Assembly: GCF_003173775.1 (NCBI RefSeq)
Contig: NZ_CP029552.1
Span: 6,097,001-6,161,000 of the forward strand
Source: Methylobacterium sp. 17Sr1-1
GTDB taxonomy: Bacteria > Pseudomonadota > Alphaproteobacteria > Rhizobiales > Beijerinckiaceae
Reading direction: 5' to 3'
DNA length: 64,000 nt
Positions 4,657 through 28,311 of this stretch are shown one piece after another; the stretch's first letter is position 1; each line of letters opens with the position of its first letter. The position numbers and the translations under genes were made by a program. The notes under the pieces were generated by a model. That model saw only the letters and a program-made list of their open reading frames with translations. It made no database searches and was not told the DNA's origin.

Positions 4657-6516
4657 CTATTCCGCCGCCGCCCGCTCCTCATCCTCCCCCAAAAATCCGC
4701 CGGATTGGCGCGCCCAAAGCCGTGCATAGAGCCCGCCGGCCTTCACGAGGTCGGCGTGGCGCCCCTCCTCGACGATCCGGCCGCGATCGAGCACCACCAG
4801 CCGGTCGAGGGCCGCGATGGTCGAGAGGCGGTGGGCGATGGCGAGCACGGTCTTGCCCTGCATCAGCCGGTCGAGGGAACTCTGGATCGCCGCCTCGACC
4901 TCCGAATCGAGGGCGGAGGTCGCCTCGTCGAGGATCAGGATCGGCGCGTCCTTCAGGATCACCCGCGCGATGGCGATGCGCTGGCGCTGGCCGCCCGACA
5001 GCTTGACGCCGCGCTCGCCGACCTGGGCGTCGTAGCCGCCGCGGCCCTTGTGATCGGTCAGTTCGCCGATGAAGGCGTCGGCATGCGCGGCTTGCGCCGC
5101 CGCGACGATCTCGGCCTCGGTCGCGTCCTCGCGGCCATACGCGATGTTGTCGCGGATCGAGCGGTGAAGGAGCGAGGTGTCCTGCGTCACCACGGCGATC
5201 TGCCGGCGCAGGGAGGCCTGCGTGACGTCCGCGATGTCCTGCCCGTCGATCAGGATGCGCCCGCCCTCGAGGTCGTGCAGGCGCAGCAGCAGTGAGGTCA
5301 GGGTGGTCTTGCCCGCCCCGCTCGGACCCACCAGCCCGACCTTCTCGCCCGCCGCGATCCGCAAGCTCAGGTCCTCGATGATCCCGGCGTCCTCCCGGCC
5401 GTAATGGAAGCTCACGCCCTCGAACGCCACCGCGCCGCCCGTCACCGCGAGGTCGCGGGCCCCCGGCCGGTCGGTGAGCGCGTGCGGGCGGGCGATGGTC
5501 TGCATGCTCTCCTGCACGACGCCGATATGCTCGAACAGGCCGCGCACGGTCTGCATCACCCAACCCGACATCGCGATCAGCCGCAGCACCAGGGCGAGGC
5601 CCGCCGCCCCCTCGCCCGTCGTCATCTGCCCGCGCGACCACAGGGCCAGCACCACACCGGCGGTGGCGACGATGAGGCCGCTGTTGAGGAGCGAGAGCGT
5701 GCCGGTGACCGCGGTGACGAGGCGGAAGGAGTGCAGGTAGGCGTCGGTGTGGTCGATCGTGGCGCTGCGCACCGCCGAGCGCTCCTCGCGGTCGCGGGCG
5801 AACAGCTTGACGGTCAGGATGTTGGTGTAGCTGTCGACGATGCGCCCGACGAGGACCGAGCGGGTGTCGGCGACCTTCAGCGAGCGCGCCCGCGCGCGCG
5901 GCACGAAATAGGTGGTCAGCCCCGCATAGGCGAGGATCCACACGACGACCGGCAGCATCAGCCACGGGCTGATCGAGCCGAACAGGCTGACCGCGGTGAC
6001 GGCGAAGATCGCGACGTAGAGCAGGGTGTCGATGACCACGATGGCGAGCTCGCGCACCGCCACCCCGACCTGCGTCACCCGGTTGGCGAGCCGGCCGGCG
6101 AAGTCGGCCTGGAAGTACGACAGGGCGTGGCCGAGCGTGTAGAGGTGGGTGCGCCAGCGGATGAGCCCGGTGGTCTGCGGCACCACCAGCTGGTTCGACA
6201 ATGCCTCGTGCAGCCAGGCGAGGATCGGGCGCACGACGAGGATCAGGCCGGCGGCGAGCATCAGCCCGGTGCCGTGGTCGCGCCACAGGGTCTCGGGGCC
6301 GGACCGGGCCAGGATGTCGACGAACCAGCCCATCAGCAGGTAGAGCGAGGCCTCGACGCTGCCGGCGGCGAGGGCGATGCCGAACAGGGCCGCGAGCGGC
6401 CCTCGCACCGGCCGCAGGTAGAACCAGGCGAAGCCCGCCACCGTGTCGGGCGGGCGCTCGGCCTCCTCGAAGGGGGCGAAGGGATCGATGCGGCGCTCGA
6501 GCCAGTCGAGGAACAT
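4657..6516 (-). CDS. ABC exporter, fused membrane and ATPase domains (MsbA/multidrug type)
   Basis: This 619-residue half-transporter acts as a homodimer or heterodimer in the inner membrane. Residues about 35-330 form a six-helix type I exporter domain. The ATPase domain follows, with Walker A GPSGAGKTT at 397-405, signature LSGGQRQRIA at 506-515, Walker B ILILDEATSALD near 526, and the H-loop in AIAHRLS. All catalytic motifs are intact. The substrate cannot be read from the sequence; lipids, drugs or peptides are all exported by this family. The gene stands alone, convergent with the FDH operon. No partner half-transporter lies beside it, which favours a homodimer. Confidence 0.9.
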   Translation of the reverse strand: MFLDWLERRIDPFAPFEEAERPPDTVAGFAWFYLRPVRGPLAALFGIALAAGSVEASLYLLMGWFVDILARSGPETLWRDHGTGLMLAAGLILVVRPILAWLHEALSNQLVVPQTTGLIRWRTHLYTLGHALSYFQADFAGRLANRVTQVGVAVRELAIVVIDTLLYVAIFAVTAVSLFGSISPWLMLPVVVWILAYAGLTTYFVPRARARSLKVADTRSVLVGRIVDSYTNILTVKLFARDREERSAVRSATIDHTDAYLHSFRLVTAVTGTLSLLNSGLIVATAGVVLALWSRGQMTTGEGAAGLALVLRLIAMSGWVMQTVRGLFEHIGVVQESMQTIARPHALTDRPGARDLAVTGGAVAFEGVSFHYGREDAGIIEDLSLRIAAGEKVGLVGPSGAGKTTLTSLLLRLHDLEGGRILIDGQDIADVTQASLRRQIAVVTQDTSLLHRSIRDNIAYGREDATEAEIVAAAQAAHADAFIGELTDHKGRGGYDAQVGERGVKLSGGQRQRIAIARVILKDAPILILDEATSALDSEVEAAIQSSLDRLMQGKTVLAIAHRLSTIAALDRLVVLDRGRIVEEGRHADLVKAGGLYARLWARQSGGFLGEDEERAAAE

Positions 6517-6636
6517 GCGGGCTCCGGGGTGATGGGCTCTCAGCTATGCGGCGGCGCCTCGTCGCCAACCGGGGGGCGATGCCGCAGGCCGGCAACCGGC
6601 GTATGACGGGGCATCGCCCCCCACACCCCCGGACCC

Positions 6637-7092
6637 ATGCTGCGCCTCGCCCTCTACCAGCCCGACATCCCGCAGAACACCGGCACGATGCTGCGGCTGG
6701 CCGCCTGCCTCGGCGTCGCCGTCGAGATCATCGAGCCCGCGGGGTTCGACGTCTCGGACCGCCACCTGCGCCGCTCGGGCCTCGACTATCTCGACCACGT
6801 CGCGATCACCCGCCACCGCTCCTACGCCGCCTTCGATGCCTGGCGCCGTGAGGCCGGGATCCGGCTGGTGCTGGCCACCACCCACGGATCCGTGCCCTAC
6901 ACGGCGCACGCGTTCCGGGACGGCGACTGCCTGCTCGTCGGGCGCGAATCGGCCGGGGTGCCCGACGCCGTCCATGCCGATGCCGAGGCCCGGGTGGCGA
7001 TCCCGATGCGGGCGGGAATGCGCTCGCTCAACGTGGCGGTGGCGGCCGGGATGATGCTGGGGGAGGCGTTGCGCCAGACGGGGGGCTTCTGA
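6637..7092 (+). CDS. trmL: tRNA (cytidine(34)-2'-O)-methyltransferase TrmL
   Basis: This 151-residue SPOUT-fold methyltransferase has the standard TrmL length. It methylates the 2'-hydroxyl of the wobble base in certain leucine tRNAs using S-adenosylmethionine. Diagnostic motifs are the N-terminal QPDIPQNTGTMLRLAACLG and the C-terminal knot with LLVGRESAGVPD and PMRAGMRSLNVAVAAGM, which bind the cofactor. It is preceded by a 120-bp gap with no gene and followed by a palindromic repeat, so it is probably transcribed alone or with a short leader. Confidence 0.95.
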   Translation: MLRLALYQPDIPQNTGTMLRLAACLGVAVEIIEPAGFDVSDRHLRRSGLDYLDHVAITRHRSYAAFDAWRREAGIRLVLATTHGSVPYTAHAFRDGDCLLVGRESAGVPDAVHADAEARVAIPMRAGMRSLNVAVAAGMMLGEALRQTGGF

Positions 7093-12064: not shown

Positions 12065-12385
12065 TCAGCCCTGGCGGGCCGGGGTCGTGACGGTGAGGCC
12101 GTCGAGCTCGGGCTTGAGCCGGATCTGGCACGACAGGCGGGAGCTCGGCCGCACGTCCGAGGCGAAGTCGAGCATGTCCTGCTCCATCGGCTCGGCCGGG
12201 CCGACGGCCTCCGCCCAGTCCTCGCCGACATAGACGTGGCAGGTCGCGCAGGCGCAGGCGCCGCCGCATTCCGCGTCGATGCCCGGCACGTTGTTGCGGA
12301 TCGCGGTCTCCATCACGGTCGAGCCGACCTCGCCCTTCACGGTGCGGGGCGTGCCGGCGGCATCGACGTAGGTGATCTGGACCAT
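12065..12385 (-). CDS. [2Fe-2S] ferredoxin, adrenodoxin type
   Basis: This 106-residue electron carrier has the vertebrate/ISC-type ferredoxin signature. The cluster ligands are the three cysteines of CGGACACATCHVYV plus the later cysteine in RLSCQIRL. The acidic segment GEDWAEAVGPAEPMEQDMLD typical of adrenodoxin-like proteins is present. The start MVQITYVDAAG matches family length; a longer open frame upstream adds unrelated low-complexity residues. It may serve iron-sulfur assembly or a P450/hydroxylase; with no partner gene adjacent, its client is unknown. Confidence 0.93.
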   Translation of the reverse strand: MVQITYVDAAGTPRTVKGEVGSTVMETAIRNNVPGIDAECGGACACATCHVYVGEDWAEAVGPAEPMEQDMLDFASDVRPSSRLSCQIRLKPELDGLTVTTPARQG

Positions 12386-12527: not shown

Positions 12528-12845
12528 TCAGAGCAGCGCCAGGGTCTCGCGCACGGCCTGCGCCAGCGCCGGCGCCACGTCGCGCGCGTCGTCCGCGCCG
12601 CCGGCCCGCAGGGCCGCTTCGAGCCGCCCGGCGAGAGCGGCGACCCGGGCGGCGCCGACCCCGAGGGCCGAGCCCTTGAGGGTGTGGGCGAGGTCCGCCC
12701 GGGCCTCGGGCGCCAGGGCCGGATCGGCCAGCCCGGGGATCAGCCGGTCGCACTGGCCGGCGAACAGCCCCAGCACCTCGCGGGCGAGGTCGGCGTCGCC
12801 GAAGGTCTGGCGATCGAGGTGCTCGCGGTCGAGGAGCGGCTCCAT
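12528..12845 (-). CDS. Histidine phosphotransfer (Hpt) domain protein
   Basis: This 105-residue protein is essentially one four-helix Hpt domain. The phosphorylatable histidine is in AHTLKGSALGVGA near residue 54, the canonical HxxKG(S/A) motif. Such proteins relay phosphate between a hybrid kinase's receiver domain and a response regulator. No kinase or regulator is adjacent, so the partners are encoded elsewhere. It lies upstream of the ferredoxin gene on the same strand, but the 142-bp gap makes a shared transcript uncertain. Confidence 0.85.
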   Translation of the reverse strand: MEPLLDREHLDRQTFGDADLAREVLGLFAGQCDRLIPGLADPALAPEARADLAHTLKGSALGVGAARVAALAGRLEAALRAGGADDARDVAPALAQAVRETLALL

Positions 12846-13280
12846 CCGGCGTCTCGCGCTGGCCCGGTTCGGGCGGGAAAGAAGGCCAGATCCCGCAAGG
12901 TGCGGCCCGGCGCAAGGTCACGGCCCTCGCGCGGCTGTGGGCGACAGAGGTTCCGGCGGATCCGGTGGAACTCTGTCCACAGCGTGCTCACCCTCCGCCT
13001 CCGCCCGCCCTCCCGCCGGCAAAGCCGAGATTCTGCGGCAGGATAGCGGCCTCCGGCGCGGCGCGACGGACACATGGTAACCATTCCGTTAAGCTTTTTG
13101 AGAGGGTTGGCGCGGTCCGGGTATCCGGCTGGTACTCCTTGCGTCTAAGGTTCTCGTGGTAAACCGCTGAGATCGCGCCGGCTGGCGGCACGGCGCGGGT
13201 TTCGCGGGATCTCGGGGATGATGCGGCGCGGCGGCCTCAACGGGCCGCCCGGTAGCGTTCACGGCGTAACGGGGCGTTCG
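12846..13280. other. Intergenic region ahead of the giant coiled-coil gene
   Basis: This 435-bp stretch separates the divergently transcribed Hpt gene and the giant gene, and no credible gene is seen in it. It presumably holds the promoters of both. An AT-richer patch at 13076-13110 (GGTAACCATTCCGTTAAGC and onward) stands out and contains TAACCAT and TTAA words reminiscent of CtrA half-sites, but the spacing is not canonical. Confidence 0.5.
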
Positions 13281-16200
13281 ATGGCGACGGAAAAGAAGCT
13301 CAAGGATCCGGCGGAAGCGGCGCTGTCGGCGATTGAGCAGGCCCTGAACCTGGACCATCCGGCGGGGCCGGATTCCCGCTCGCCCGACATCCGCGCGATG
13401 GACGCCGATGGAGCCCGCGTCGAGCCCCGCCTGCCCGACGTTCACGATTCCGATCCCCTCTCCGATCCGCTGTCGGGCTCGCTGGCGAAGGGCGGCGCCG
13501 GCCTGGAGCCCGGCTTCGACGGCAGCCCCCTGCCCGCCTCCCGCGACGGCCGCCGCGAGGGCGGGCTCCTGCCGCCCGACCGTTCCCTCGTCGCCAACGA
13601 CGACCGCCGCAGCGTCGGTGCCCTGCAGCAGACCCTGCGCATCGAGCCGTCGCGCGCGCCCTACCTCGTCGCGAGCGTCGCGGCCCTCCTCTGGCTCGCA
13701 GGCTTCGCGGCTCTGGCCTGGAGCCAGTCCGGCGGCGACCTGCGCGGCTTCGCCGCCGGGCTCAGCGGCCTCCAGGGCGCGGTCGGCGCCGCTGCCGTGC
13801 TCGCCCCGGTGATGCTGTTCTTCATCGCCGCGATGCTGGCGGTGCGCGCCCAGGAGATGCGCCACGTCGCCCGCGCGGTCGGCGAGGTGGCGATCCGGCT
13901 CGCCGAGCCCGAGGGCTTCTCGACCGACGCGGTCCTGACCATGTCGCAGGCGGTCCGCCGCGAGGTCGCGGCGGTCGGCGACGGCGTCGAGCGGGCGCTC
14001 GCCCGCGCCGGCGAGCTCGAGACCCTGGTGCGCGGCGAGATCTCGACCCTGGAGCGCGCCTATTCGGACAACGAGATCCGCATCCGCTCCCTCGTCGAGG
14101 AGCTCGTGGCGCAGCGCGAATCCATCGTCGCCAATGCCGAGCGGGTGCGCGGCGCGATCCAGGGCTCGCACCAGAACCTGACCCAGGAGCTCGATACCGC
14201 GGCCGAGCGGATCGTGACGGCCGTCGACGGCGCCGGCGAGCGGGTGACCGCGGCGCTCGGCGCCCGCGGCGAGGCGATCACGGCGGCGATCGGCGACCGG
14301 GGCGACGCGGTCACCGCCGCGCTTGCCGCCACCGGCGACCGGGTGGTCGAGGCCGTGGCCGGCCGCGGCGACGACCTGGTGCAGCGCCTGATGGCCACCA
14401 GCGAGGGCGTGAAGACCGATCTCGGCAGCGTCGGCGAGTCCCTGAGCCGCGCGCTCGAGACCCGGGCGGTCGAGGTCACGGAGGCGTTCGAGCGCACCGG
14501 CGGCCTCCTCACCCGCACGCTCGCGGAGAATGCCGGCACCGTCGCCCGCACCCTGGCGGAGACCGGGGCCGAGGTGATCGAGGCCCTCAACCGCGAGGGC
14601 GCCCAGGTCCGCGACACCTTCGAGCGATCGGCGCAGGGGCTGGAGGAGCGCTTCCTCGCCCGCGGCAGCGACCTCACCGAGCGCTTCGCCGAGACCGGCA
14701 GCGCCATCACCGAGCGGTTCGCCGCCTCGGGCAGCGCCATCGCGGCCCACATCTCCGACCGCGGCATCGCGCTCCGCGAGGAGATCGAGCAGGCCGGCAA
14801 CGGCGTGGCGGTCGCGATCGAGGCCCGGGCGGCGGCGGCCGAGGCTGGGCTCGCCCGCGCCAGCGACGGCGTGATCACGGCCTTCGGCGACCGCGCCACG
14901 AAGGTGCGCGACGACCTCTCGACGCTGGTCGAGGACGCGGCCCAGGCGCTGGGCGTGCGCGGCGCCGACCTCGCGGCCCGCCTGGAGGAGACGATCGGGC
15001 GCGTCGAGGAGGTGCTGGTCGGCCATGGCGGCAGCCTCGAGCGCAGCCTGGACCAGACTGGCGAGCGCGTCGCCGCCCTGGTGGCCGAGCGGACGGGCGA
15101 GGCCGAGAACCGGATCGGCCAGGCGCTGGCCGGCCTCAGCCTCGCCTTCGAGACCCGCAGCCGCGACCTCGCCGAGGGTCTCGACCAGCGCACCCGGGAG
15201 ACGCAGGCCGCGTTCGCGCTCGCGGCCGACACCCTGCAGGGCGGTTTCGAGGCCCGCACCGCCGATGCCGGCGACGCCCTGCGCCGCACCGCGGACGAGA
15301 TCGGCGCCGACCTCGACGCCCGCGCCGCGGCCCTGGCCGCGCGCTTCCGCGCCGCCGCCGAGGCCGCGACCGGCCATGTCGGCGCGCAGACCGAGGAGGC
15401 CGCGACCGCCTTCGCCCGCGCCGCCGACGAGGCCGGCCGCACCCTGGCGACCCGCGCCCAGTCCCTCGACGAGTCCCTGCGCAGCACGATCGAGCACCTG
15501 ACGCGCCAGGCCGAGGACGTGTCCGCCGCCCTCGCTCTCGCCGCCGAGAGCGCCACCGGCGCCCTCGACGGACGCACCGCCGCTGCCGCCGCCGCCTTCG
15601 TGGTCGCTGCCGAGGAGGCCGGCCGCCTGATCGGCGAGCGCACCGAGACCGCCGACGCGTCCCTGCGCACCGCACTCGCCGGCCTCGCCGAGCGGGCCGA
15701 GGCCGCCGCCGCCGCCCTCACCGCGTCGGCCGACACGGTCGGCGACGCGCTCCAGGGCCGCTCCACGGAGGCAGCCGAGATCATGCGCCGCACCGCCGAG
15801 CAGGTGACGGGCGCGCTCGGCACCCGCACGGTCGAGGTGGCGCACATCTTCCGGCGCACGCTGGAGACCACCGGCGCCGAGCTCGATGCCCGCAGCCAGG
15901 CCGCGGCCGAGCTGTTCCGGCAGGCGACGACCGCGACGACCGGCGAGCTGGGCGCGCGGGCGGAAGAGGCCGCCGAGGTGCTGCGCCGCGTTGCCGAGAC
16001 GGCGACGGGGGCGGTCGGGGCCCGCACGGCGGAGAGCGTCGAGGCGTTCCGGCACGGCGCCGAGGAGGCGGCGGGCGCGCTGCAGGCGCGTCTGGCCGAT
16101 GCTGCCGCGTCCTTCGCCCGGGTGGCGGAGGAGGCAGCCCAACTGATCGGGACGCGGGCGGGCGAGGCCGACACGGCGCTGCACGGCGCGGTGGTCGGAC

Positions 16201-19200
16201 TGGCGAGCCGCGCCGAGGAGGCGGCGCTCGCGATCGGGCGCGCGGCCGAGACGGCGACCGGCGCCCTCGATGCGCGCACGCTGGCGGCGACCACCGCCTT
16301 CGCCCAAGCGGCGGAAGCGGCCGGACGCCTGGTCGGCGACCGGGCGCAGGCGGCCGACGCGACCCTGCGGGGCGCGGTCGAGGGTTTGGCCGGGCGGGCG
16401 GACGAGGTCGCCTCGGCGATCGCGGCGGCCGCCGAGCAGGCGACCGGTCACTTCGATGCGCGTACCCTGGCGGCGGCCTCGGCCTTCGCCCGCGCCGCCG
16501 AGGAGGCCGGGCGCCTCGTGGCCGAGCGCACCGAGACCACCGACGCGACCCTGCGCAAGGCCGTCGAGCACCTGACGCGCCAGGCCGAGGACGTGTCCGC
16601 CGCCCTCGCTCTCGCCGCCGAGAGCGCCACCGGCGCCCTCGACGGGCGCACCGCCGCTGCGACCGCCGCCTTCGCGGCTGCCGCGCATGAGGCCGGCCGC
16701 CTGATCGGCGAGCGCACCGAGACCGCCGACGCGTCCCTGCGCACCGCGCTCGCCGGCCTCGCCGAGCGGGCCGAGGCCGCCGCCGCCGCCCTCACCGCGT
16801 CGGCCGACACGGTCGGCGACGCGCTCCAGGGCCATTCGACGGAAGCCGCCGAGATCATGCGCCGCGCCGCCGAGCAGGCGACGGGCGCGCTCGGCACCCG
16901 CACGGTCGAGGTGGCGCACATCTTCCGGCGCACGCTGGAGACCACCGGCGCCGAGCTCGATGCCCGCAGCCAGGCCGCGGCCGAGCTGTTCCGGCAGGCG
17001 ACGACCGCGACGACCGGCGAGCTGGGCGCGCGGGCGGAAGAGGCCGCCGAGGTGCTGCGCCGCGCCGCCGAGACGGCGACGGGGGCGGTCGGCGCCCGTA
17101 CGGCGGAGAGCGTCGAGGCGTTCCGGCAGGGTGCCGAGGAGGCGACGGGCGCGCTGCAGGCGCGTCTGGCCGATGCTGCCGCGTCCTTCGCCCGGGTGGC
17201 GGAGGAGGCAGCCCAGCTGATCGGGACGCGGGCGGGCGAGGCCGACACGGCGCTGCACGGCGCGGTGGTCGGACTGGCGGGCCGCGCCGAGGAGGCGGCG
17301 CTTGCGATCGGGCTCGCGGCCGAGACGGCGACCGGCGCCCTCGATGCGCGCACGCTGGCGGCGACCACCGCCTTCGCACAGGCCGCGGACGCCGCCGGCC
17401 GCCTCGTCACCGAGCGCGCCGCTGCCGCCGACCAAACCCTGCGGGGCGCGGTCGACGGCCTGGCCGGGCGGGCGGACGAGGTCGCCTCGGCGATCGCGGC
17501 GGCCGCCGAGCAGGCGACCGGTCACTTCGATGCGCGTACTCTGGCGGCGGCCTCGGCCTTCGCCCGCGCCGCCGAGGAGGCCGGGCGCCTCGTGGCCGAG
17601 CGCACCGAGACCACCGACGCGACCCTGCGCAAGGCCGTCGAGCACCTGACGCGCCAGGCCGAGGACGTGTCCGCCGCCCTCGCTCTCGCCGCCGAGAGCG
17701 CCACCGGCGCCCTCGACGGGCGCACCGCCGCTGCGACCGCCGCCTTCGCGGCTGCCGCGCATGAGGCCGGCCGCCTGATCGGCGAGCGCACCGAGACCGC
17801 CGACGCGTCCCTGCGCACCGCGCTCGCCGGCCTCGCCGAGCGGGCCGAGGCCGCCGCCGCCGCCCTCACCGCGTCGGCCGACACGGTCGGCGACGCGCTC
17901 CAGGGCCATTCGACGGAGGCCGCCGAGATCATGCGCCGCGCTGCCGAGCAGGCGACGGGCGCGCTCGGCACCCGCACGGTCGAGGTGGCGCACATCTTCC
18001 GGCGCACGCTGGAGACCACCGGCGCCGAGCTCGATGCCCGCAGCCAGGCCGCGGCCGAGCTGTTCCGGCAGGCGACGACCGCGACGACCGGCGAGCTGGG
18101 CGCGCGGGCGGAAGAGGCCGCCGAGGTGCTGCGCCGCGCCGCCGAGACGGCGAGCGGCGCGGTCGGGGCCCGCACGGCCGAGAGCGTCGAGGCGTTCCGG
18201 CAGGGTGCCGAGGAGGCGACGGGCGCGCTGCAGGCGCGTCTGGCCGATGCTGCCGCGTCCTTCGCCCGGGTGGCGGAGGAGGCAGCCGCACTGATCGGGA
18301 CGCGGGCGGGCGAGGCCGACACGGCGCTGCACGGCGCGGTGGTCGGACTGGCGGGCCGCGCCGAGGAGGCGGCGCTCGCGATCGAGCGCGCGGCCGAGAC
18401 GGCGACCGGCGCCCTCGATGCGCGCACGCTCGCGGCCACCGCCGCCTTCGCCCGCGCCGCCGAGGAGGCCAGCCGTCAGGTGGCCGACCGCACGCAGGCC
18501 ACCGACGCGACCCTGCGGGGCGCGGTCGAGCACCTGACGCGGCAGGCCGAGGACGTCGCGGCGGCCCTGGCGCTCGCGGCGGAATCCGCCACCGGCGCCC
18601 TCGACACCCGCCTCGCCGAGGTCGGGACCGCCTTCGAGGACAATGGCCGCGCGCTGACCGACCTGATCGGCCGGCACGCCGAGGAGACCCAGACCCGCCT
18701 CGCGGAGGCCGGCCGCGACATCGTCGTGGCGGTGGCGAGCCAGGGCGCGCGGGTCAACGACGCTCTCGACAAGACCGGCGCCGCGTTCGCCAGCGCCGCC
18801 GAGACGGGCGGCCGCGCCATCGACGAGGTGCTGACCAGCCGCCTCGCCGCGCTCCAGGACGCCATCGCCCGCGGCGACATCCTGGCCGACCGCATCTCCC
18901 GCGACACCCACGATCTCACCGCGAGCGTCTCCGGCCGCCTGGAGGAGATGGACCGCCTCATCACGGTCCAGGGCCGCGCCGTGGCCGAGACCATCGCCGA
19001 GCGCACCCGCGAGGCGCGCGAGGCCGTCGAGGCCCAGCTCGGGGCGCTCGAGGACCGCTCGGCCAAGCGCACCGCCGAGATCGGCGCCACCTTCAGCACC
19101 ATGGTGGCCCATGTCGACCAGCATATCGGCGCCCGTGCCACGGCGCTGAACGAGGCCCTGATCGTGCGGGCCGGCGAGATGGCCCGGGTGATGGCCGAGG

Positions 19201-22200
19201 GCGGCCGCGAGGTCGCCCAGGCCCTCGACGGCCGCGCCGACGAGCTCGCCCGCGCCATCACCGCCCGCAGCCAGGCGATGAGCGACACGCTGACCGCCCG
19301 CGTCGGCGAGATCGGCGACGAGCTCGGCCGCCGCACCGAGGAGCTGACCCGCTCCCTCGATGCCGGTGCCGCCCGCTTCGACGAGCGGGTGATCGCCCGC
19401 CTCGACGGCCTCGCCCAGGCCCTCGACGAGCGCGGCCGCATCGTCGACGAGACCTTCGGCGTGAAGGCCGAGGAGGCCTTGCACCTGATCGAGAGCCGCA
19501 CCCGCCGCCTCGACGAGGAACTGGGCGCCCGCACCCGCGAGCTCGTCACCTTCGTGGAGAACCACAGCGGCGAGGCGAGCCGCGACCTCGCCGCCCAGGC
19601 CGAGGCCATCCGCGCCGCCTTCGAGGGACGCGGCGAGTCCCTGGCGCGCCTCGTCGACGAGCGCACCGCCGCCATGGCGCAGGAGATCGACGAGCGCGGC
19701 CGGGCGCTGTTCGGCTCGCTCGCCGGCCGCATGACCGAGCTGGCGCGGCTGTTCGACCGCGGCGGCACGGCGCTGACCGACCTCATCGGCAAGCGCGGCG
19801 AGGCCGTGCTCGGGGCGTTGCGCGAGACGATCGAAGAGGCCGACCGCGTCCTCGCCGAGGGCTCGGGCCGCCTGGAGACCGTGGTGGGTGAGCGCGGCAC
19901 TGCGCTGGCCACCCTGCTCGACGAGCGTGGCGGGCACATCGAGCACCTGTTCGGCGAGCGCCTGCGGGCCCTCGGCGGCCTCCTGGACGAGCAGGCCGCG
20001 ACCCTGCGCGGGCTGCTCGACGGCCAGTCGGCGGCGCTCCATGCCGGTCTCGACGACCGGATCCGCGCCCTGCACGACGCCCTGGAGCAGCGCGCCGGCG
20101 CGGTGCGCCAGGTGCTCGACGACCAGGCCGGCGCCCTCGGCGCCGTGCTCGACGACCGGGTCGGCACCCTGCGCGGCGTGCTCGCGGAAGGCGGCGACAC
20201 CCTGGCGGCGACGCTGGAGGAGCGCGTCGGCCGCGCCGTCGGCACCGTCGACCAGCGCACCCACGCTCTCTCGCGTCTGTTCGACGACCGCCTCGCCGCC
20301 CTCGACCACCTGGTCGAGAGCCGCGGCGCGGCCTTCGCGGAGGCAGTGGAGGCCCGCGCCCAGGCGCTCGCCGGGATGCTGGACGACCGCACCGAGGCCT
20401 TCGTCCGGGCGGCGCAATCCGGCGGCACCAGCCTGTCGGGCCGCATCGAGGCGGCGCTCAACGACCTCGACGGCCTGATCGAGGCCCGGTCGCGGGCGCT
20501 GGAGACCACCCTCGACCGTCGCGGCGAGGCCCTGGCGGGCCTGATCGCGGCGAGGGGCGAGGAGGCCGCCGGCCTGCTCGAATCCCGCGTCGCGACGCTC
20601 GGCGACGCGGTGTCGCGCAGCGCTCAAGCCGTGTCCGGCCTCCTCTCGGAGCGCGAGGCCGGCCTCGGCGACGCCCTCGACGGGCACCGCACCGCGCTCG
20701 CCCGGACCCTCACCGAGCGCGTGGAAGCGCTGGCGTCCCTGCTGCGCGAGCGCGAGGAGGCCATCGCGGGCACGATCGAGCAGGGCGGCGGCAACCTGGT
20801 GCGGCTGATCGACGGCCGCCAGCGGGCGCTCGCCGAGCTGACCGGCGCCGGCGACGTCCTGGCCCGCCGGGTCCAGGAGCGCATCGACGTGCTCGCCGCC
20901 ACGATCCGCAGCGGCGGCGACGCGCTGGCCGGCCTGCTCGACTCGCGCAACAGCGACCTCGCCGAGACCTTCGACGGCCGCGGCGCGGCGCTGGCCGCCC
21001 TGCTCGACGCCCGCGTGGCCGAGCTGTCCACCGCCCTCGAGCGCAGCCGCGCCGCCCTCGACGCGGTGCTCGGCGGGCAGGTCGAGGCGCTGGCCCAGCG
21101 GCTCGACGCCGGCGGCGAGGCGGTGGCCCAGCAGCTGCGGGCGAGCATCGAGGCGCTCGGCGGCACCGTCGAGGAGCGCGCCGCGGCCTTCGGGATGCTG
21201 GTCGACGCCAAGGCGGCGGAGCTCGCCGCGCTGATGCAGGCCCGTACCGAGGCCCTGTCGGGCAGCGTCGACGAGCGCTCGGCGGCCTTCACGGCCCGGA
21301 TCGACGGCCGGATGCGCGCCTTCGCGGCCCTGGTGGCGGCCCGCGGCGAGGCCCTGGCCGACGCCTTCGACGACCGCAGCGACGCCTACGCGGCCCTGGT
21401 CGACGCCCGCACCGCGGCGCTCACGGCGGCCCTCGACGAGCGGGTCGCGAGCCTGCACGGCGCCATGGACGAGCGCTCCGCCGCGCTCGCCGCGGCGGTG
21501 GACGAGCGCAGCGCCCAGCTGAGCTCGGGCTTCGACCGCCGCGCCGCGGCCTTCGCGGCGCTGATCGACCAGCGCGGCACCACCCTGACCCGGGCGCTCG
21601 CCGAGACCGCCCGCGACCTGACCCAGGCGATCGACGGGCGCGGCAACGAGCTGAACCGCGGCCTCGCCGAGCGGGTCGAGGCCCTGCGCCAGATCGTCGA
21701 CGAGCGCGGCGGGCGCTTGGGCCAGACCCTCGAGGCGACCACCGCCTCGCTGCAACGCACGATCGACCAGCGCGGCGGCGCCCTCGTGGCGGCGCTGGCG
21801 GCGAGCGGCCAGACCGTCGAGGGGCTCGACCGCCAGGTGGCGCAGCTGCGCGACCTCGTCGAGGGCCCCGGCAGCGAGCTGGTCACGGTGCTGACCCAGC
21901 GCAGCGAGGCGCTGGAGCGGGCGGTGACCGAGGGGATGGGCGGCGCCGTGGCGGTGCTCGGCGAACGCGCCGAGACGCTGGCGGCCCTCTCCTCCGAGGC
22001 GGCCGAGACCCTGCGCCGGGCGGCCGACCAGGGCGCGGCCCGGGCGGTCGAGGCCCTGACGCAGGTCAACCAACGCCTCGGGGGCGAGCTCGGCGGCCTG
22101 ATCGGCCGCATCGAGGCCGCCTGCGGCGCGCTCCAGGACCTCATCGGCAAGTCCGGCGAGAACCTCTCGGCGATCGAGGGCGGGCTGTCGGGCCGGGTGC

Positions 22201-23882
22201 AGGAGATCCAGTCGGCGCTCGCCGAGATCGCCGTCGAGACCGGCAAGGCCTCCGACCGGGTCGCCGAGCAGGTCGGCGCGCTCCAGGGCGCGGCGACCGG
22301 GGCGCTCCGCCAGGCGGCGGGCCTCGCCGCGACGCTCGACGCCCGCGGCAAGGCCCTGACCGAGACCGCGCGCCAGCATATCGGCGACCTCACGGCGGCC
22401 GCCGGCGCGCTGGAAGGCGCCGAGGGCCGGGTCAACGCCTCGCTCGGCGAGCGCCGGACCGAGATCGACGCCCTGCTCGGCAGCATCGATGCCCGCTCGG
22501 CGGCCCTCGCCGCCGCCACGGAGGGCGTCGGCGCCCGGGTCGAGGCGACGCTCAAGACCATCGAGGCCCGCACCCAGGCGCTCGGCCGCGAGATCGAGGC
22601 CAGCGCCCGCCAGGCCGGCAGCGCCGTGACGGAGGCGTTCGAGCGCCTGCGCTCCGGTACCGGCCAGGAGGGCGAGCGGGCGGCCGAGTCGGTCCGCCAG
22701 GCGGTGGCCGGCGCCTCGGGCGAGATGCGCGAGGCCTTCGGCGACGCCGCCGAACGCTTCCAGGGCACGGTGGAATCCATGCGCGGCATGGCGAGCGAGA
22801 TCCGCCGCACCCTGGAGGAGATCCGCGGCGACCTGCAGCGCGGCGTGGTCAGCATCCCGCAGGAGGCGCAGGACGCCACCGGCGAGATGCGCCGGGTGGT
22901 GGCCGAGCAGATCAGGGCCCTGAACGAGCTCTCGGCCCTGGTCCAGCGCTCGCCCCGTGCGGTCGATGTCGCCCAGCCCTCGGCTCAGCCGCTGGCCCAG
23001 CCCCGCGCCGCGGAAGCCGGCCGGTCCGCTGCTTCGGTCCAGGGCCCGGCGGTCCAGAAGCCGCAAGGTCAGAGCCCGCAGGCTCAGGCCCCGGCGCAGC
23101 CCGCTCCGGTGCAGGGTTCGGCGCAGGCCGCCCGGCCGTCGGCACCGAAGCCGGCGGTCCAGGCTCCGGCTCAGCCCGCGCCTCAGGCCGCCCCGGCGCG
23201 CCCGGCCCAAGGTTCGGCCCAAGGTACGGCTCAGGTCCCCGCTCAAGTCTCGGCCCGTCCGGCTTCGGCGCAGGGATCGGCGCAAGGCCCGGCCCGTCCG
23301 GCCGCGCCTCAGGCCGCGAACCGGCCCGCCGGCGAGGCGCGGCGCGACGCCGCCCTCCCCCGCACCGGGTCCGGCGGCTGGCTCTCCGACCTCCTCTCCC
23401 GCGCGTCGCAGGACGATGAGGACGAGGCGCCGGCGGCCGGCAAGGCTGCGGCCAAGGGAGGCCAAGAGAAGCCGGGCCAGGAGAAGACGGATCAGGCGGG
23501 CAAGGCGGGCCAGAACACCGGCGCCGACCGGGCCGGCTCCGCCGCGATCGACTCGATCTCCAGCAACATCGCCCGGATGATCGAGCACGCGGCCGCGGTG
23601 GACCTGTGGGAACGCTACCGGCGCGGCGAGACGGATCTGTTCACCCGCCGCCTCTACACGGCGGAGGGCCAGCAGACCTTCGACGAGATCCGCCGCCGCT
23701 ACCGCGCCGAGCCGGATTTCCGCCGGACCGTCGACCACTACGTGCGGGAGTTCGAGCGCCTGCTCGGCGAGGTCTCCCGCACCGACAAGGACCCGCGCCG
23801 GGCCAACGCCTACCTCACCTCGGAGAGCGGCAAGGTCTACACGATGCTGGCCCATGCCAGCGGGCGCTTCGAGGGGGCGTGA
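13281..23882 (+). CDS. Giant membrane-anchored coiled-coil protein, GPR/RgsE-like (polar growth)
   Basis: This is a single 3533-residue protein. Residues 1-125 are cytosolic. Two hydrophobic segments lie near 128-148 and 168-188. About 3000 residues of alanine-rich helical repeats follow, of the kind databases often label apolipoprotein- or kinesin-like. Next come a Pro/Gln/Ala linker (about 3227-3365), an acidic-basic linker and a compact C-terminal domain (about 3429-3533) containing DLWERYRRGETDLFTRRLY and YLTSESGKVYTMLAHASGR. Two membrane segments, a huge helical body and this end resemble the Agrobacterium growth pole ring protein GPR and Sinorhizobium RgsE (about 2100 residues), which organise polar growth. 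That homology is my inference. It is about 1400 residues longer, partly through recent tandem duplication. An equally long antisense frame is a codon-bias shadow. Confidence 0.8.
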   Translation: MATEKKLKDPAEAALSAIEQALNLDHPAGPDSRSPDIRAMDADGARVEPRLPDVHDSDPLSDPLSGSLAKGGAGLEPGFDGSPLPASRDGRREGGLLPPDRSLVANDDRRSVGALQQTLRIEPSRAPYLVASVAALLWLAGFAALAWSQSGGDLRGFAAGLSGLQGAVGAAAVLAPVMLFFIAAMLAVRAQEMRHVARAVGEVAIRLAEPEGFSTDAVLTMSQAVRREVAAVGDGVERALARAGELETLVRGEISTLERAYSDNEIRIRSLVEELVAQRESIVANAERVRGAIQGSHQNLTQELDTAAERIVTAVDGAGERVTAALGARGEAITAAIGDRGDAVTAALAATGDRVVEAVAGRGDDLVQRLMATSEGVKTDLGSVGESLSRALETRAVEVTEAFERTGGLLTRTLAENAGTVARTLAETGAEVIEALNREGAQVRDTFERSAQGLEERFLARGSDLTERFAETGSAITERFAASGSAIAAHISDRGIALREEIEQAGNGVAVAIEARAAAAEAGLARASDGVITAFGDRATKVRDDLSTLVEDAAQALGVRGADLAARLEETIGRVEEVLVGHGGSLERSLDQTGERVAALVAERTGEAENRIGQALAGLSLAFETRSRDLAEGLDQRTRETQAAFALAADTLQGGFEARTADAGDALRRTADEIGADLDARAAALAARFRAAAEAATGHVGAQTEEAATAFARAADEAGRTLATRAQSLDESLRSTIEHLTRQAEDVSAALALAAESATGALDGRTAAAAAAFVVAAEEAGRLIGERTETADASLRTALAGLAERAEAAAAALTASADTVGDALQGRSTEAAEIMRRTAEQVTGALGTRTVEVAHIFRRTLETTGAELDARSQAAAELFRQATTATTGELGARAEEAAEVLRRVAETATGAVGARTAESVEAFRHGAEEAAGALQARLADAAASFARVAEEAAQLIGTRAGEADTALHGAVVGLASRAEEAALAIGRAAETATGALDARTLAATTAFAQAAEAAGRLVGDRAQAADATLRGAVEGLAGRADEVASAIAAAAEQATGHFDARTLAAASAFARAAEEAGRLVAERTETTDATLRKAVEHLTRQAEDVSAALALAAESATGALDGRTAAATAAFAAAAHEAGRLIGERTETADASLRTALAGLAERAEAAAAALTASADTVGDALQGHSTEAAEIMRRAAEQATGALGTRTVEVAHIFRRTLETTGAELDARSQAAAELFRQATTATTGELGARAEEAAEVLRRAAETATGAVGARTAESVEAFRQGAEEATGALQARLADAAASFARVAEEAAQLIGTRAGEADTALHGAVVGLAGRAEEAALAIGLAAETATGALDARTLAATTAFAQAADAAGRLVTERAAAADQTLRGAVDGLAGRADEVASAIAAAAEQATGHFDARTLAAASAFARAAEEAGRLVAERTETTDATLRKAVEHLTRQAEDVSAALALAAESATGALDGRTAAATAAFAAAAHEAGRLIGERTETADASLRTALAGLAERAEAAAAALTASADTVGDALQGHSTEAAEIMRRAAEQATGALGTRTVEVAHIFRRTLETTGAELDARSQAAAELFRQATTATTGELGARAEEAAEVLRRAAETASGAVGARTAESVEAFRQGAEEATGALQARLADAAASFARVAEEAAALIGTRAGEADTALHGAVVGLAGRAEEAALAIERAAETATGALDARTLAATAAFARAAEEASRQVADRTQATDATLRGAVEHLTRQAEDVAAALALAAESATGALDTRLAEVGTAFEDNGRALTDLIGRHAEETQTRLAEAGRDIVVAVASQGARVNDALDKTGAAFASAAETGGRAIDEVLTSRLAALQDAIARGDILADRISRDTHDLTASVSGRLEEMDRLITVQGRAVAETIAERTREAREAVEAQLGALEDRSAKRTAEIGATFSTMVAHVDQHIGARATALNEALIVRAGEMARVMAEGGREVAQALDGRADELARAITARSQAMSDTLTARVGEIGDELGRRTEELTRSLDAGAARFDERVIARLDGLAQALDERGRIVDETFGVKAEEALHLIESRTRRLDEELGARTRELVTFVENHSGEASRDLAAQAEAIRAAFEGRGESLARLVDERTAAMAQEIDERGRALFGSLAGRMTELARLFDRGGTALTDLIGKRGEAVLGALRETIEEADRVLAEGSGRLETVVGERGTALATLLDERGGHIEHLFGERLRALGGLLDEQAATLRGLLDGQSAALHAGLDDRIRALHDALEQRAGAVRQVLDDQAGALGAVLDDRVGTLRGVLAEGGDTLAATLEERVGRAVGTVDQRTHALSRLFDDRLAALDHLVESRGAAFAEAVEARAQALAGMLDDRTEAFVRAAQSGGTSLSGRIEAALNDLDGLIEARSRALETTLDRRGEALAGLIAARGEEAAGLLESRVATLGDAVSRSAQAVSGLLSEREAGLGDALDGHRTALARTLTERVEALASLLREREEAIAGTIEQGGGNLVRLIDGRQRALAELTGAGDVLARRVQERIDVLAATIRSGGDALAGLLDSRNSDLAETFDGRGAALAALLDARVAELSTALERSRAALDAVLGGQVEALAQRLDAGGEAVAQQLRASIEALGGTVEERAAAFGMLVDAKAAELAALMQARTEALSGSVDERSAAFTARIDGRMRAFAALVAARGEALADAFDDRSDAYAALVDARTAALTAALDERVASLHGAMDERSAALAAAVDERSAQLSSGFDRRAAAFAALIDQRGTTLTRALAETARDLTQAIDGRGNELNRGLAERVEALRQIVDERGGRLGQTLEATTASLQRTIDQRGGALVAALAASGQTVEGLDRQVAQLRDLVEGPGSELVTVLTQRSEALERAVTEGMGGAVAVLGERAETLAALSSEAAETLRRAADQGAARAVEALTQVNQRLGGELGGLIGRIEAACGALQDLIGKSGENLSAIEGGLSGRVQEIQSALAEIAVETGKASDRVAEQVGALQGAATGALRQAAGLAATLDARGKALTETARQHIGDLTAAAGALEGAEGRVNASLGERRTEIDALLGSIDARSAALAAATEGVGARVEATLKTIEARTQALGREIEASARQAGSAVTEAFERLRSGTGQEGERAAESVRQAVAGASGEMREAFGDAAERFQGTVESMRGMASEIRRTLEEIRGDLQRGVVSIPQEAQDATGEMRRVVAEQIRALNELSALVQRSPRAVDVAQPSAQPLAQPRAAEAGRSAASVQGPAVQKPQGQSPQAQAPAQPAPVQGSAQAARPSAPKPAVQAPAQPAPQAAPARPAQGSAQGTAQVPAQVSARPASAQGSAQGPARPAAPQAANRPAGEARRDAALPRTGSGGWLSDLLSRASQDDEDEAPAAGKAAAKGGQEKPGQEKTDQAGKAGQNTGADRAGSAAIDSISSNIARMIEHAAAVDLWERYRRGETDLFTRRLYTAEGQQTFDEIRRRYRAEPDFRRTVDHYVREFERLLGEVSRTDKDPRRANAYLTSESGKVYTMLAHASGRFEGA
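15492..18527 (+). repeat. Near-identical 1074-bp tandem repeats inside the giant gene
   Basis: A landmark word GAGCACCTGACGCG recurs at 15492, 16566, 17640 and (diverged) 18528. Units 1 and 2 are exactly 1074 bp (358 codons). Unit 3 is 888 bp, shorter by 186 bp, which is exactly one 62-residue sub-repeat (ATGALDARTLAATTAF type). Units 2 and 3 are more alike than either is to unit 1. The near-identity at DNA level points to recent duplication by unequal crossing over. All units stay in frame and cover about residues 738-1749 of the protein. Confidence 0.93.
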
Positions 23883-24765: not shown

Positions 24766-25668
24766 TCAGGTGAAGCGGGCGAGCTTCTCGTCGAGGGCGA
24801 GGTCGTCGATCTCCGCGAACGCGTCCTCCAGCGCGACCGCGTCGTCGGCGGCCGGCGCCTCGTCGCGGACCGGCACGAAGGCGATGTCGTCGTCCGGCAA
24901 GGCCGGCTCGACCAGGCGCAGGCGCGGACCCGAGGCCGGCTCCTCGTCCCCGGCCTCGTCCGCGCCCTGATCCGGGCCGGCCGCCCTGTCGGCCGACTTG
25001 CCGGTCGCCACGATCTGGTCGACGTCGTCCTGGTCGAGGGTGGTGTCCGGCACGTCGGGCCGGTGCGCGGCCGGGGCCGGCGGATCGTCCTCGCTCGCCC
25101 AGATCTCGATCATCGCGGTCAGGCGCTGCTCGAGGTAGCGCAGGGTGTTGACGATGCGGCTGGTGCGCTGCGCCGTCAGGTCCTGGAACGAGCAGGCGGT
25201 GTAGATCTGGGTCGCGTTCTGGTCGAGGCGGTCGCAGACGCGGCTGTCGGCCCCGGTCTCGCGCAGGGTCCAGGCGACCTCCTGCACCTCCTCGGCGGCC
25301 TGAAGGATGTCGGAGGTGGCGCGCTCGGTGGTGCGCACGATGCCGTCGAGGGCCTCGGAGGCGGCGCCGAGCTGGCTCTGGTCCTGGTCGGGGGTGTGGA
25401 TCGCCGCGATCTCGGACTTGGTCCGGCTGATCGCCTTGGCCATCTCGATCAGGTCGAAGCGCAGGCGCTCCATCCCGGAGGGGCCGCGCTCGCCGACCAC
25501 GGCGGATTCGAGCCGGCCGATCGCCTGGAGCAGCACGTCGGTATCGGCGGTGCGGTTGCGCTTGGCGTACTCGCCCAGGAACCAGCGCCCCCGCGCCGTC
25601 TCCAGCATCGCACCCTCGATGACGTCGTACTCCTCCCGCGGAGCGGGGAGCGAAGGGGTCCCGGCCAT
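24766..25668 (-). CDS. CheZ-like chemotaxis phosphatase
   Basis: This 300-residue protein carries the CheZ core motif CSFQDLTAQRTSRIVN near residue 180. The aspartate and glutamine of FQDLT-Q are the residues that CheZ inserts into CheY to speed dephosphorylation. A long helical segment precedes it, and the C-terminal third is acidic and Pro/Ala-rich. The extreme C-terminus (FAEIDDLALDEKLARFT) could be a short CheY-binding helix, as in E. coli CheZ. No che operon is adjacent; an orphan MCP-like gene lies about 13 kb away. Relatives in alphaproteobacteria are generally annotated as protein phosphatase CheZ. Confidence 0.82.
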   Translation of the reverse strand: MAGTPSLPAPREEYDVIEGAMLETARGRWFLGEYAKRNRTADTDVLLQAIGRLESAVVGERGPSGMERLRFDLIEMAKAISRTKSEIAAIHTPDQDQSQLGAASEALDGIVRTTERATSDILQAAEEVQEVAWTLRETGADSRVCDRLDQNATQIYTACSFQDLTAQRTSRIVNTLRYLEQRLTAMIEIWASEDDPPAPAAHRPDVPDTTLDQDDVDQIVATGKSADRAAGPDQGADEAGDEEPASGPRLRLVEPALPDDDIAFVPVRDEAPAADDAVALEDAFAEIDDLALDEKLARFT

Positions 25669-27102: not shown

Positions 27103-28311
27103 GTGGCGAACGAGGGAGGCCGGCCCGTGCCGACCGCACCCATCACGCGGGGGGCCGATCCGGCCCGCGTCGCGGTCGAGCGCGCGCGCGACGGGATCGC
27201 CGCGCGCCTCGCCGGCCGCTGGACCGCCGACCAGGCCCCCGCCGTCGAGGCCGCCTCCGCCGAGATGCTGGCCGCTGCAAGTCCTGCCTGTGCAAGTACT
27301 GCCGGTGCAAGTCCTGCCGTCGGCTTGCCCCTCGTCATCGACCTCTCGGGCCTCGCCCGCCTCGACACCCTCGGCGCCTGGGTGCTGGAGCGGACCCGCG
27401 CCGCCCTTCCGGCCGGCACGACCTACGCGGGCGCCTCCCCCGAGCACCTGATCCTCCTGCGCGAGGTCGCCTACCGCGAGGCGGCGCCGGCGTCGCGCCG
27501 CCGGCGCTTCCACCCCCTCGATCCGGTCGCGAGCCTGGGCGCGGGGGTGCGCAGCCTCGGCCGCGAGGGCCTGTCCGGGCTCGCCTTCCTGGGCGAGGTG
27601 GTGGCGGGCTGCCTGCGGGTGCTCGCCCGCCCGCGCAGCTTCCGCGGACCGGCGCTCGTCAACCAGATCGAGCAGATCGCCTTGCGCGGCGCGCCGATCA
27701 TCATGCTGATCTCGTTCCTGGTCGGCTGCATCGTCACCCAGCAGGGCATCATCCAGCTCCAGCGCTTCGGGGCCCAGACCTACGTCGTCAACATGATCGG
27801 CATCCTCACCCTGCGCGAGCTCGGGGTGCTGCTCACCTCGATCATGGTGGCGGGGCGCTCCGGCTCGGCCTTCACGGCGGAGATCGGCTCGATGCGGATG
27901 CGCGAGGAGGTCGATGCGCTGCGCGTCATGGGCCTCGACCCGATCGAGATCCTGATCGTCCCGCGCATCATCGCCTTGATGCTCGCCCTGCCGATGCTGG
28001 CCTTCCTGGCCGATCTCGCGGCGCTCGCCGGCGGCGCGATGACCTCGTTCCTCTATGGCGGCCTGTCGCTCGAGGCGTTCACCTTCCGGCTCCAGAACGC
28101 GATCGGCTTTCGGCACCTCGCCATCGGGTTGATCAAGGCGCCGTTCATGGCGCTGATCATCGGCATCATCGCCTCGGTCGAGGGGTTCATGGTCGAGGGC
28201 TCGGCCGAGTCGCTCGGCCGCCACGTCACCGCCTCAGTCGTCAAGTCTATCTTCATGGTCATCGTCCTCGATGGGCTCTTCGCGGTGTTCTTCGCGGCCA
28301 TCGACTTCTGA
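27103..28311 (+). CDS. MlaE-family lipid ABC transporter permease with N-terminal STAS-like domain
   Basis: This is the permease subunit of an Mla-type system that moves phospholipids between the inner and outer membranes. Residues about 20-125 look like a STAS domain (LVIDLSGLARLDTLGAWVLE), supplying in cis what E. coli provides as separate MlaB. Residues about 150-400 are the MlaE permease (NQIEQIALRGAPIIMLISF, VAGRSGSAFTAEIGSMRM, EEVDALRVMGLDPI). It starts at GTG. The ATPase, MCE and lipoprotein genes follow directly, giving a complete transport operon without an MlaC-like periplasmic carrier. Confidence 0.94.
   Translation: MANEGGRPVPTAPITRGADPARVAVERARDGIAARLAGRWTADQAPAVEAASAEMLAAASPACASTAGASPAVGLPLVIDLSGLARLDTLGAWVLERTRAALPAGTTYAGASPEHLILLREVAYREAAPASRRRRFHPLDPVASLGAGVRSLGREGLSGLAFLGEVVAGCLRVLARPRSFRGPALVNQIEQIALRGAPIIMLISFLVGCIVTQQGIIQLQRFGAQTYVVNMIGILTLRELGVLLTSIMVAGRSGSAFTAEIGSMRMREEVDALRVMGLDPIEILIVPRIIALMLALPMLAFLADLAALAGGAMTSFLYGGLSLEAFTFRLQNAIGFRHLAIGLIKAPFMALIIGIIASVEGFMVEGSAESLGRHVTASVVKSIFMVIVLDGLFAVFFAAIDF
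27276..27320 (+). repeat. Three 15-bp in-frame repeats in the permease gene
   Basis: Three consecutive 15-bp units of the TGCAAGTCCTGCC type lie at 27276-27290, 27291-27305 and 27306-27320. They encode an Ala/Ser/Pro/Cys-rich stretch inside the STAS-like domain. In-frame units like this can gain or lose copies by slippage without breaking the gene. Confidence 0.75.

Follow-up and report, generated by a model that had tools for sequence, protein, structure and literature searches.

An RgsE/GPR orthologue of 3533 residues from Methylobacterium, with a helical array that changes length almost only by whole turns and carries a tandemly duplicated 358-residue unit

The window analysed here, a 64,000-nucleotide stretch of DNA from Methylobacterium sp. 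17Sr1-1, contains a gene for an orthologue of RgsE and GPR with 3533 residues, which we consider likely to be a membrane-tethered polar scaffold with a hendecad coiled-coil array; the array changes length almost only in whole turns and includes a tandemly duplicated unit of 358 residues. What is new is the nearly proline-free 11-residue (hendecad) array together with its change of length almost only in whole turns. Judged by orthology, the protein is likely to serve at the new pole as a membrane-tethered organizing centre for the growth of the cell wall.

Bacteria with unipolar growth mostly lack MreB. In Agrobacterium tumefaciens, GPR (Atu1348, WP_010971556.1, 2115 aa) forms a ring of six foci at the growth pole (PMC8262873), and the loss of GPR, or of RgsE in Sinorhizobium meliloti, delocalizes cell-wall synthesis and leaves the cell rounded or bent (PMC8262873, PMC7327166). 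RgsE (SMc00190, published length 2089 aa) has RgsA, RgsS and TolQ as partners in S. meliloti, is homologous to GPR with 42% identity, and has homologues reported in all families of the Rhizobiales (PMC7327166), so that the presence of the gene in the present organism was to be expected. Removal and complementation of rgsE are both feasible in S. meliloti Rm2011 (PMC7327166). For polar growth in Methylobacterium itself, the literature that we found consists of Bergmiller and Ackermann (2011), as a cited title and a mention.

METHODS

Published work is cited from those parts of the articles that were available. The genus set comprised 47 sequences, namely 53 loci fetched, minus seven that were left out (L068, L069, L074 and L077, which run into contig ends; L082 and L109, which are split; and L112, in which the start motif was unmatched), plus the 3533-residue protein. 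The Rhizobiaceae set comprised 75 sequences, that is 80 named loci minus L176, L177, L220, L226 and L229. Gap counts cover these two sets, and 27 further loci from the order lie outside them. To reduce repeated counting, comparisons were confined to proteins adjacent in a minimum spanning tree, and only pairs sharing 75% identity or more entered the counts (35 of 46 in the genus and 49 of 74 in the Rhizobiaceae, the latter rising to 50 at one gap setting of the other aligner). Changes to the MAFFT options --op and --ep gave identical gap counts, so the robustness of the counts rests on another aligner, used with three gap settings. Residues belonging to later copies of a repeat were removed using windows of 60 residues and an identity of at least 75%.

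RESULTS

The frame at 13281..23882 was confirmed as 3533 codons followed by a stop (Table 1). An alternative ATG at 13218, upstream, would extend the protein to 3554 residues; the opening MATEKKLKDPAEAALSA is common to the close relatives within the genus, among which it is little changed, and this supports the start at 13281. The pattern of GC content by codon position (0.805/0.568/0.951), taken with the fact that the frame is open in relatives, marks it as the coding frame. In two loci (L082 and L109) the gene is broken across two frames into N- and C-terminal pieces, through frameshift, sequencing error or decay.

Table 1. Features of the gpr locus; positions are those of the window
Feature	Position	Strand	Evidence
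2Fe-2S ferredoxin gene, conserved neighbour	12065..12385	-	PF00111, 42.3 bits (cut-off 21)
Divergent Hpt-domain gene, conserved neighbour	12528..12845	-	PF01627, 37.4 bits (cut-off 24.6)
gpr/rgsE orthologue, 3533 aa	13281..23882	+	ORF, composition, homology at both ends, in-frame C-terminal domain
First predicted membrane segment, residues 126–148	13656..13724	+	Hydropathy; model helix 126–149
Second predicted membrane segment, residues 157–192	13749..13856	+	Hydropathy; model helix 164–208
Conserved juxtamembrane helix, residues 193–330	13857..14270	+	Alignment with 26 named Rhizobiaceae loci
11-residue-periodic helical array, residues 216–3190	13926..22850	+	Period, autocorrelation, composition, hydrophobic stripe, PF01442
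Copy 1 of 358-residue unit, residues 696–1053 (ends approximate)	15366..16439	+	DNA 92.0% identical to copy 2
Copy 2 of 358-residue unit, residues 1054–1411 (ends approximate)	16440..17513	+	DNA 93.9% identical to copy 3
Copy 3 of 358-residue unit, residues 1412–1769 (ends approximate)	17514..18587	+	DNA 89.7% identical to copy 1
Pro/Gln/Ala-rich linker, residues about 3224–3424	22950..23552	+	Sequence; many small indels
Conserved C-terminal domain, residues 3425–3533	23553..23879	+	61.5% identity over 109 aa to S. meliloti protein; alignment; model

An earlier note on this DNA had described two N-terminal membrane segments, about 3000 residues of helical repeats, a Pro/Gln linker and a conserved C-terminal domain, and this architecture was borne out, with the amendment that a unit of 358 residues stands three times in tandem within the array, its copies being nearly identical. 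Two N-terminal hydrophobic segments were found in 62 of the 63 sequences examined. In the structure model of the N-terminal part, pLDDT was below 50 nearly throughout residues 26–111. The C-terminal domain was modelled as helical, with a best pLDDT of 84.9 and poor agreement among five models, and comparison of the model with solved structures gave no convincing match.

A tblastn search of a plasmid collection with the C-terminal 109 residues returned five records, four from Sinorhizobium and one from Shinella. The record CP090106.1 (S. meliloti, 3.7 Mb, labelled pSymB) encodes a protein of 2089 aa, LZK74_25975, which is annotated 'kinesin' and adjoins cytochrome bc1 genes; from its length, taxon and homology we identify it as the presumptive RgsE (SMc00190). 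Both ends of the 3533-residue protein matched it in pairwise BLASTP, the C-terminus with E 3.6e-52 and the N-terminus with 44% identity over 231 aa (E 6e-59). N- and C-terminal queries matched one and the same ORF in 74 of 80 loci, the remaining six being those cut by contig ends or split (see Methods). Of 150 genomes sampled across the order, 142 carried the C-terminal domain in frame, as did 108 of 111 from the genus, where the three misses were assemblies of 420–730 contigs; an Agrobacterium query found the domain in 387 of 394 genomes from the family taken for the Rhizobiaceae. Orthologues of 1899–2342 aa are carried by three Agrobacterium loci (L208, L214 and L215). As a separate observation, five gpr-bearing records that are labelled as plasmids (CP090106.1, NZ_CP069303.1, NZ_CP104131.1, NZ_CP104127.1 and NZ_CP104135.1; 3.5–4.6 Mb) are chromosome-like.

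The ferredoxin and Hpt-domain genes lie divergently upstream of the gene at 13281..23882, as do their counterparts beside rgsE in S. meliloti. Among the 148 loci with enough upstream DNA, a divergent ferredoxin gene was found within 3 kb of gpr in 141 and a divergent Hpt gene in 129; by group, the two genes were found in 46 and 46 of 49 loci of the genus, 70 and 69 of 72 Rhizobiaceae loci and 25 and 14 of 27 other loci of the order. Homology at either end of the protein, together with the shared gene order, makes the gene the positional orthologue of Sinorhizobium rgsE, and its kinship to GPR is supported through the published homology of RgsE and GPR (PMC7327166). The homology to both proteins proposed in the earlier note stands directly for RgsE and by that published step for GPR; the lack of a significant match at either end, which the note would have taken as refutation, was not observed. 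In Rhizobium etli, no Hpt partner was found near rdsA according to the available text of the paper on RdsA (PMC9022086); a link between RdsA and the Hpt protein divergent from gpr would be a guess.

Other parts of the neighbourhood are shared with S. meliloti in rearranged form: positions 6640–7080 and 4690–6519 of the window match tRNA methyltransferase and ABC transporter genes that in S. meliloti lie on the other side of rgsE. Downstream of gpr is an MlaE permease gene (27103–28308, + strand; PF02405, 233 bits), and the frame between the two (24766–25668, − strand) matched CheZ with 30.0 bits against a cut-off of 30.7. Positions 1–2593 resemble Azospirillum oryzae DNA whose annotation names formate dehydrogenase alpha and FDH3 beta subunits. 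In the plasmid collection, the match listed first for positions 1–25000 was to Methylobacterium bullatum (85.5% over 2.6 kb), in keeping with the genus.

Hydrophobicity along the array shows autocorrelation peaks at 11, 22, 33, 44, 55 and 66 residues and a period of 3.656 residues per turn, that of the S. meliloti protein being 3.654. The array contains a single proline in 2975 residues, 24% alanine, 0.4% lysine and no tryptophan, and large hydrophobic residues are gathered in a narrow stripe, making up 63% at its centre and 29 and 13% at 65 degrees to either side. The Pfam model PF01442 matched the protein with 317.9 bits in 21 stretches (curated cut-off 90) and the S. meliloti protein with 257.8 bits in 12 stretches; of 14 unrelated genomes used as controls, 7 likewise gave responses to this model, though below its cut-off. 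Apolipoprotein A-IV provided the only PDB sequence matches at E ≤0.001 (3s84, E 3e-4; 9hx4).

In two families, the array gains and loses length almost only by whole helical turns. Among array gaps of at least 11 residues, 57 of 67 in the genus and 85 of 91 in the Rhizobiaceae deviated by no more than 0.15 turn from an integral number of turns, where chance would give 30%, leaving 10 and 6 out of phase. Exact multiples of 11 made up 44 of 67 and 60 of 91 array gaps of at least 10 residues, and the remaining long gaps were mostly of the form 11n+7m (18, 29 and 62, for example). Among linker gaps of at least 10 residues, 2 of 15 in the genus and 3 of 8 in the Rhizobiaceae were in phase. For gaps of all lengths, the in-phase share was 58/69 and 88/97 in the array and 29/123 and 16/93 in the linker (genus and Rhizobiaceae, respectively), the phases of the linker gaps being non-random (Rayleigh p about 8e-4 and 5e-5) because these gaps are mostly of 2–5 residues.

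Gaps of 1–10 residues numbered, per 1000 aligned residues in the genus and the Rhizobiaceae, 0.026 and 0.075 in the array, 32.6 and 25.3 in the linker, 7.1 and 8.5 in the N-terminal disordered part, and 0 and 0 in the C-terminal domain; they were more than 300-fold rarer in the array than in the linker, and at least 75-fold rarer with other settings. With the other aligner, small gaps per 1000 residues ranged over the three gap settings from 0.012 to 0.43 in the array and from 20.9 to 43.3 in the linker, and in-phase array gaps amounted to 61/71, 65/88 and 54/64 in the genus and 88/95, 89/109 and 85/93 in the Rhizobiaceae. The array has 13–17 times as many aligned residues as the linker, and its residues differ only about two-fold less (8.7 and 10.4% versus 23.0 and 17.3%). 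This near-absence of small gaps from the array is a stronger sign than the excess of in-phase gaps, which is no proof of selection, since recombination between repeats of 33 and 66 bp would of itself yield multiples of the unit. Whole turns are probably kept because the hydrophobic stripe must stay in register.

Complete sequences from the genus (n=47) measured 2008–3674 residues (median 2635), nine of them having at least 3000 residues and three, the 3533-residue protein included, at least 3533; named Rhizobiaceae sequences (n=75) measured 1846–2959 residues (median 2116). The protein had been described in the earlier note as far larger than its known relatives, with a comparison of lengths across the genus suggested as a check. 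This holds against RgsE and GPR but not within its own clade, where it is no outlier: the ten close sequences formed by the protein and its nine closest relatives span 2742–3674 residues.

The great length of the protein is owed in good part to a unit of 358 residues (1074 bp) that has recently been duplicated in tandem, in frame and with register kept. Three tandem copies start at about residue 696, with dN/dS between copies of 0.48–0.53, and the two extra copies account for about 716 residues, that is 716 of the 1444 by which the protein exceeds that of S. meliloti; the remainder is older length. With the residues of later copies removed, the protein is reduced to 2809 residues, and its nine closest relatives come to 2681–2818. 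The gaps that separate it from these nine within residues 700–1800 are of 22, 62, 124, 172, 222, 296, 358, 420 or 654 residues; the closest relative (L066, 97% by its termini) is shorter by 631 residues, and another (L067) differs chiefly by one gap of exactly 358. The clade thus possesses a site at which expansion is active. That the copies are an artefact of assembly is unlikely, as they differ at 6–10% of bases and a self-match displaced by 358 residues is seen in several close relatives too.

Long GPR versions may also exist outside the genus. In G604, G880 and G719 (of the family of G136), the frames open at the C-terminal match measure 3131–3392 aa; these lengths are upper bounds, because a listed frame can exceed the true ORF (3503 against 2690 in G106).

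DISCUSSION

We envisage that two predicted N-terminal membrane helices anchor the protein in the inner membrane, that some 3000 residues of amphipathic, 11-residue-periodic helix run from the membrane in the cytoplasm, and that the helix gives way to a disordered Pro/Gln linker and a small conserved C-terminal domain. By homology, such a scaffold would gather the machinery for cell-wall growth at the growing pole. The array would form a hendecad coiled-coil rod or bundle. It gains and loses length almost only in whole turns, its stripe probably needing register, and in-frame tandem duplication of the 358-residue unit has lengthened it with register kept.

A role in handling lipid at the growth pole, by sorting or sequestration, was proposed for the array by the authors of the work on GPR (PMC8262873). 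A true apolipoprotein-like lipid-binding region would account for a PF01442 score far above the cut-off, for apolipoprotein A-IV as the sole PDB sequence match and for the impairment of GPR by deletions in its A-IV-like regions (PMC8262873), and register would then follow from the need for the amphipathic face to rest on a membrane. We nevertheless regard lipid binding as rather unlikely: the array has scarcely any proline or lysine, no tryptophan and a narrow stripe, the same Pfam model responds below its cut-off in half of the control genomes, and ZorA-tail profiles match the array as well. The low content of proline and lysine would itself argue against binding to lipid. Ala-rich cores have been described for hendecad coiled coils, in which small residues ease packing (PMC9858780), and an array that is nearly free of proline and changes length almost only by whole turns is more easily squared with a coiled-coil rod locked in register than with an apolipoprotein that binds lipid. 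Our preferred reading is that the array makes a hendecad coiled-coil rod or bundle, its hydrophobic stripe being single, narrow and unbroken. The wider proposition, that GPR-family proteins are register-locked hendecad coiled-coil rods forming a length-plastic polar scaffold, able to take up or shed hundreds of residues provided that whole turns are retained, and not lipid-sorting apolipoproteins, seems to us about evenly poised.

What the length of such a rod means admits of several answers. The earlier note suggested that subunit length might set ring size or cell width. Taken as a ruler, in which the number of units decides how large the ring at the growth pole or how wide the cell is, this is in keeping with an array that is long and length-plastic, but species with near-identical termini differ by hundreds of residues, which weakens the idea without refuting it, and we think it improbable. 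Far better placed, at slightly short of an even prospect, is the possibility that array length is nearly neutral, copies coming and going by recombination while register and a minimum length alone matter. The spread of lengths among the ten close sequences and the dN/dS between copies speak for near-neutrality; that the same dN/dS is well below 1, so that the copies are constrained, and that register is kept, speak against it. As to whether the gene encodes a GPR orthologue at all, it is extremely improbable that the product is instead a ZorA-type defence protein or that the opposite strand bears the gene. Scores against the PADLOC models of ZorA go up to 111 bits, but the best ZorA stretches in the 3533-residue protein start at profile position 228 or beyond, the S. 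meliloti protein scores alike, and no membrane domain of the MotA/ExbB/TolQ type was found in Pfam up to E 1; ZorA membership is refuted. The antisense frame opposite gpr is open over 3588 aa, but it is fully open in just 11 of 48 genus ORFs of more than 1900 aa; not being kept, it is rejected as the gene and is a by-product of composition. GPR proteins reach these ZorA scores through their tail repeats, so that an annotator of defence systems could miscall GPR as ZorA.

Some published deletions in GPR can be set against the register rule. Deletion of the whole A-IV-4 domain (232–494, 263 residues), after which paired foci still formed, corresponds to 71.94 turns, and deletion of A-IV-1 (1036–1381, 346 residues), after which they were lost, to 94.64 turns, which is off register; a coiled-coil deletion of 20 residues in A-IV-4, equal to 5.5 turns, interfered with the wild type worst of all deletions, to the surprise of the authors (PMC8262873). 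The fit of the A-IV-4 and A-IV-1 outcomes to the rule is post hoc and a hint only, because the small deletions are given variously as 20 residues, 413–433 and 413–434 and the limits of A-IV-1 and A-IV-4 are swapped in the Methods (PMC8262873), and because we take the limits of each domain to be the ends of its deletion. Against the rule, the off-register A-IV-1cc deletion of 20–21 residues complemented well, and the A-IV-4cc deletion expressed alone still gave paired foci (PMC8262873). If true, the rule could explain why a deletion of about 20 residues interferes more than the surrounding 263-residue deletion, and it predicts that deletions of 20 and of 22 residues will differ in outcome.

The words hendecad, periodic, amphipathic and repeat are absent from the available text of the GPR paper (PMC8262873), and we found no paper joining hendecads with GPR or RgsE in a search that left subscription journals mostly outside its scope. 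The GPR array has so far been read as apolipoprotein-like; a register rule with scarcely any small indels, found in each of two families on its own, suggests a simple hypothesis for its structure. Natural variants of 2.0–3.7 thousand residues could be used as they stand to ask whether, and how, rod length matters at the growth pole. The rise of an alpha-helix being 0.15 nm per residue, a helix of 1700 residues would extend over about 255 nm and the present array over about 446 nm. For GPR, the extended 1700-residue helix is put at 600 nm in the conclusions of the published work (PMC8262873).

Among known systems, the closest likeness is to RgsE, which shares the two N-terminal membrane segments, the proline-poor 11-residue array of the same period, the Pro-rich linker, a C-terminal domain that is 61% and an N-terminal region that is 44% identical, and the divergent ferredoxin and Hpt neighbours; it differs in having 2089 aa and in lacking the 358-residue copies. 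GPR, also shorter, is alike by its published architecture of two membrane segments, a helix of 1700 residues in PF01442, a Pro-rich region of 110 residues and an essential C-terminus, at which a tag disturbs the protein (PMC8262873). Apolipoprotein A-IV has similar amphipathic repeats of 11 and 22 residues and matches by profile and by PDB sequence, but the array here is nearly without proline and lysine and has a narrow stripe. ZorA of the Zorya defence systems is likewise anchored in the membrane, and its cytoplasmic part is a long helical tail that forms a rod by bundling (PMC11890865); its profiles match the array, and it differs in its MotA/TolQ-type membrane domain. Finally, Scy and FilP of the Actinobacteria are long, Ala-rich, mostly hendecad coiled-coil rods of the polar or division machinery (PMC9858780); they have a DivIVA-like start, and no membrane anchor is described for them in the available text (PMC9858780). 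The parallel is a functional one only.
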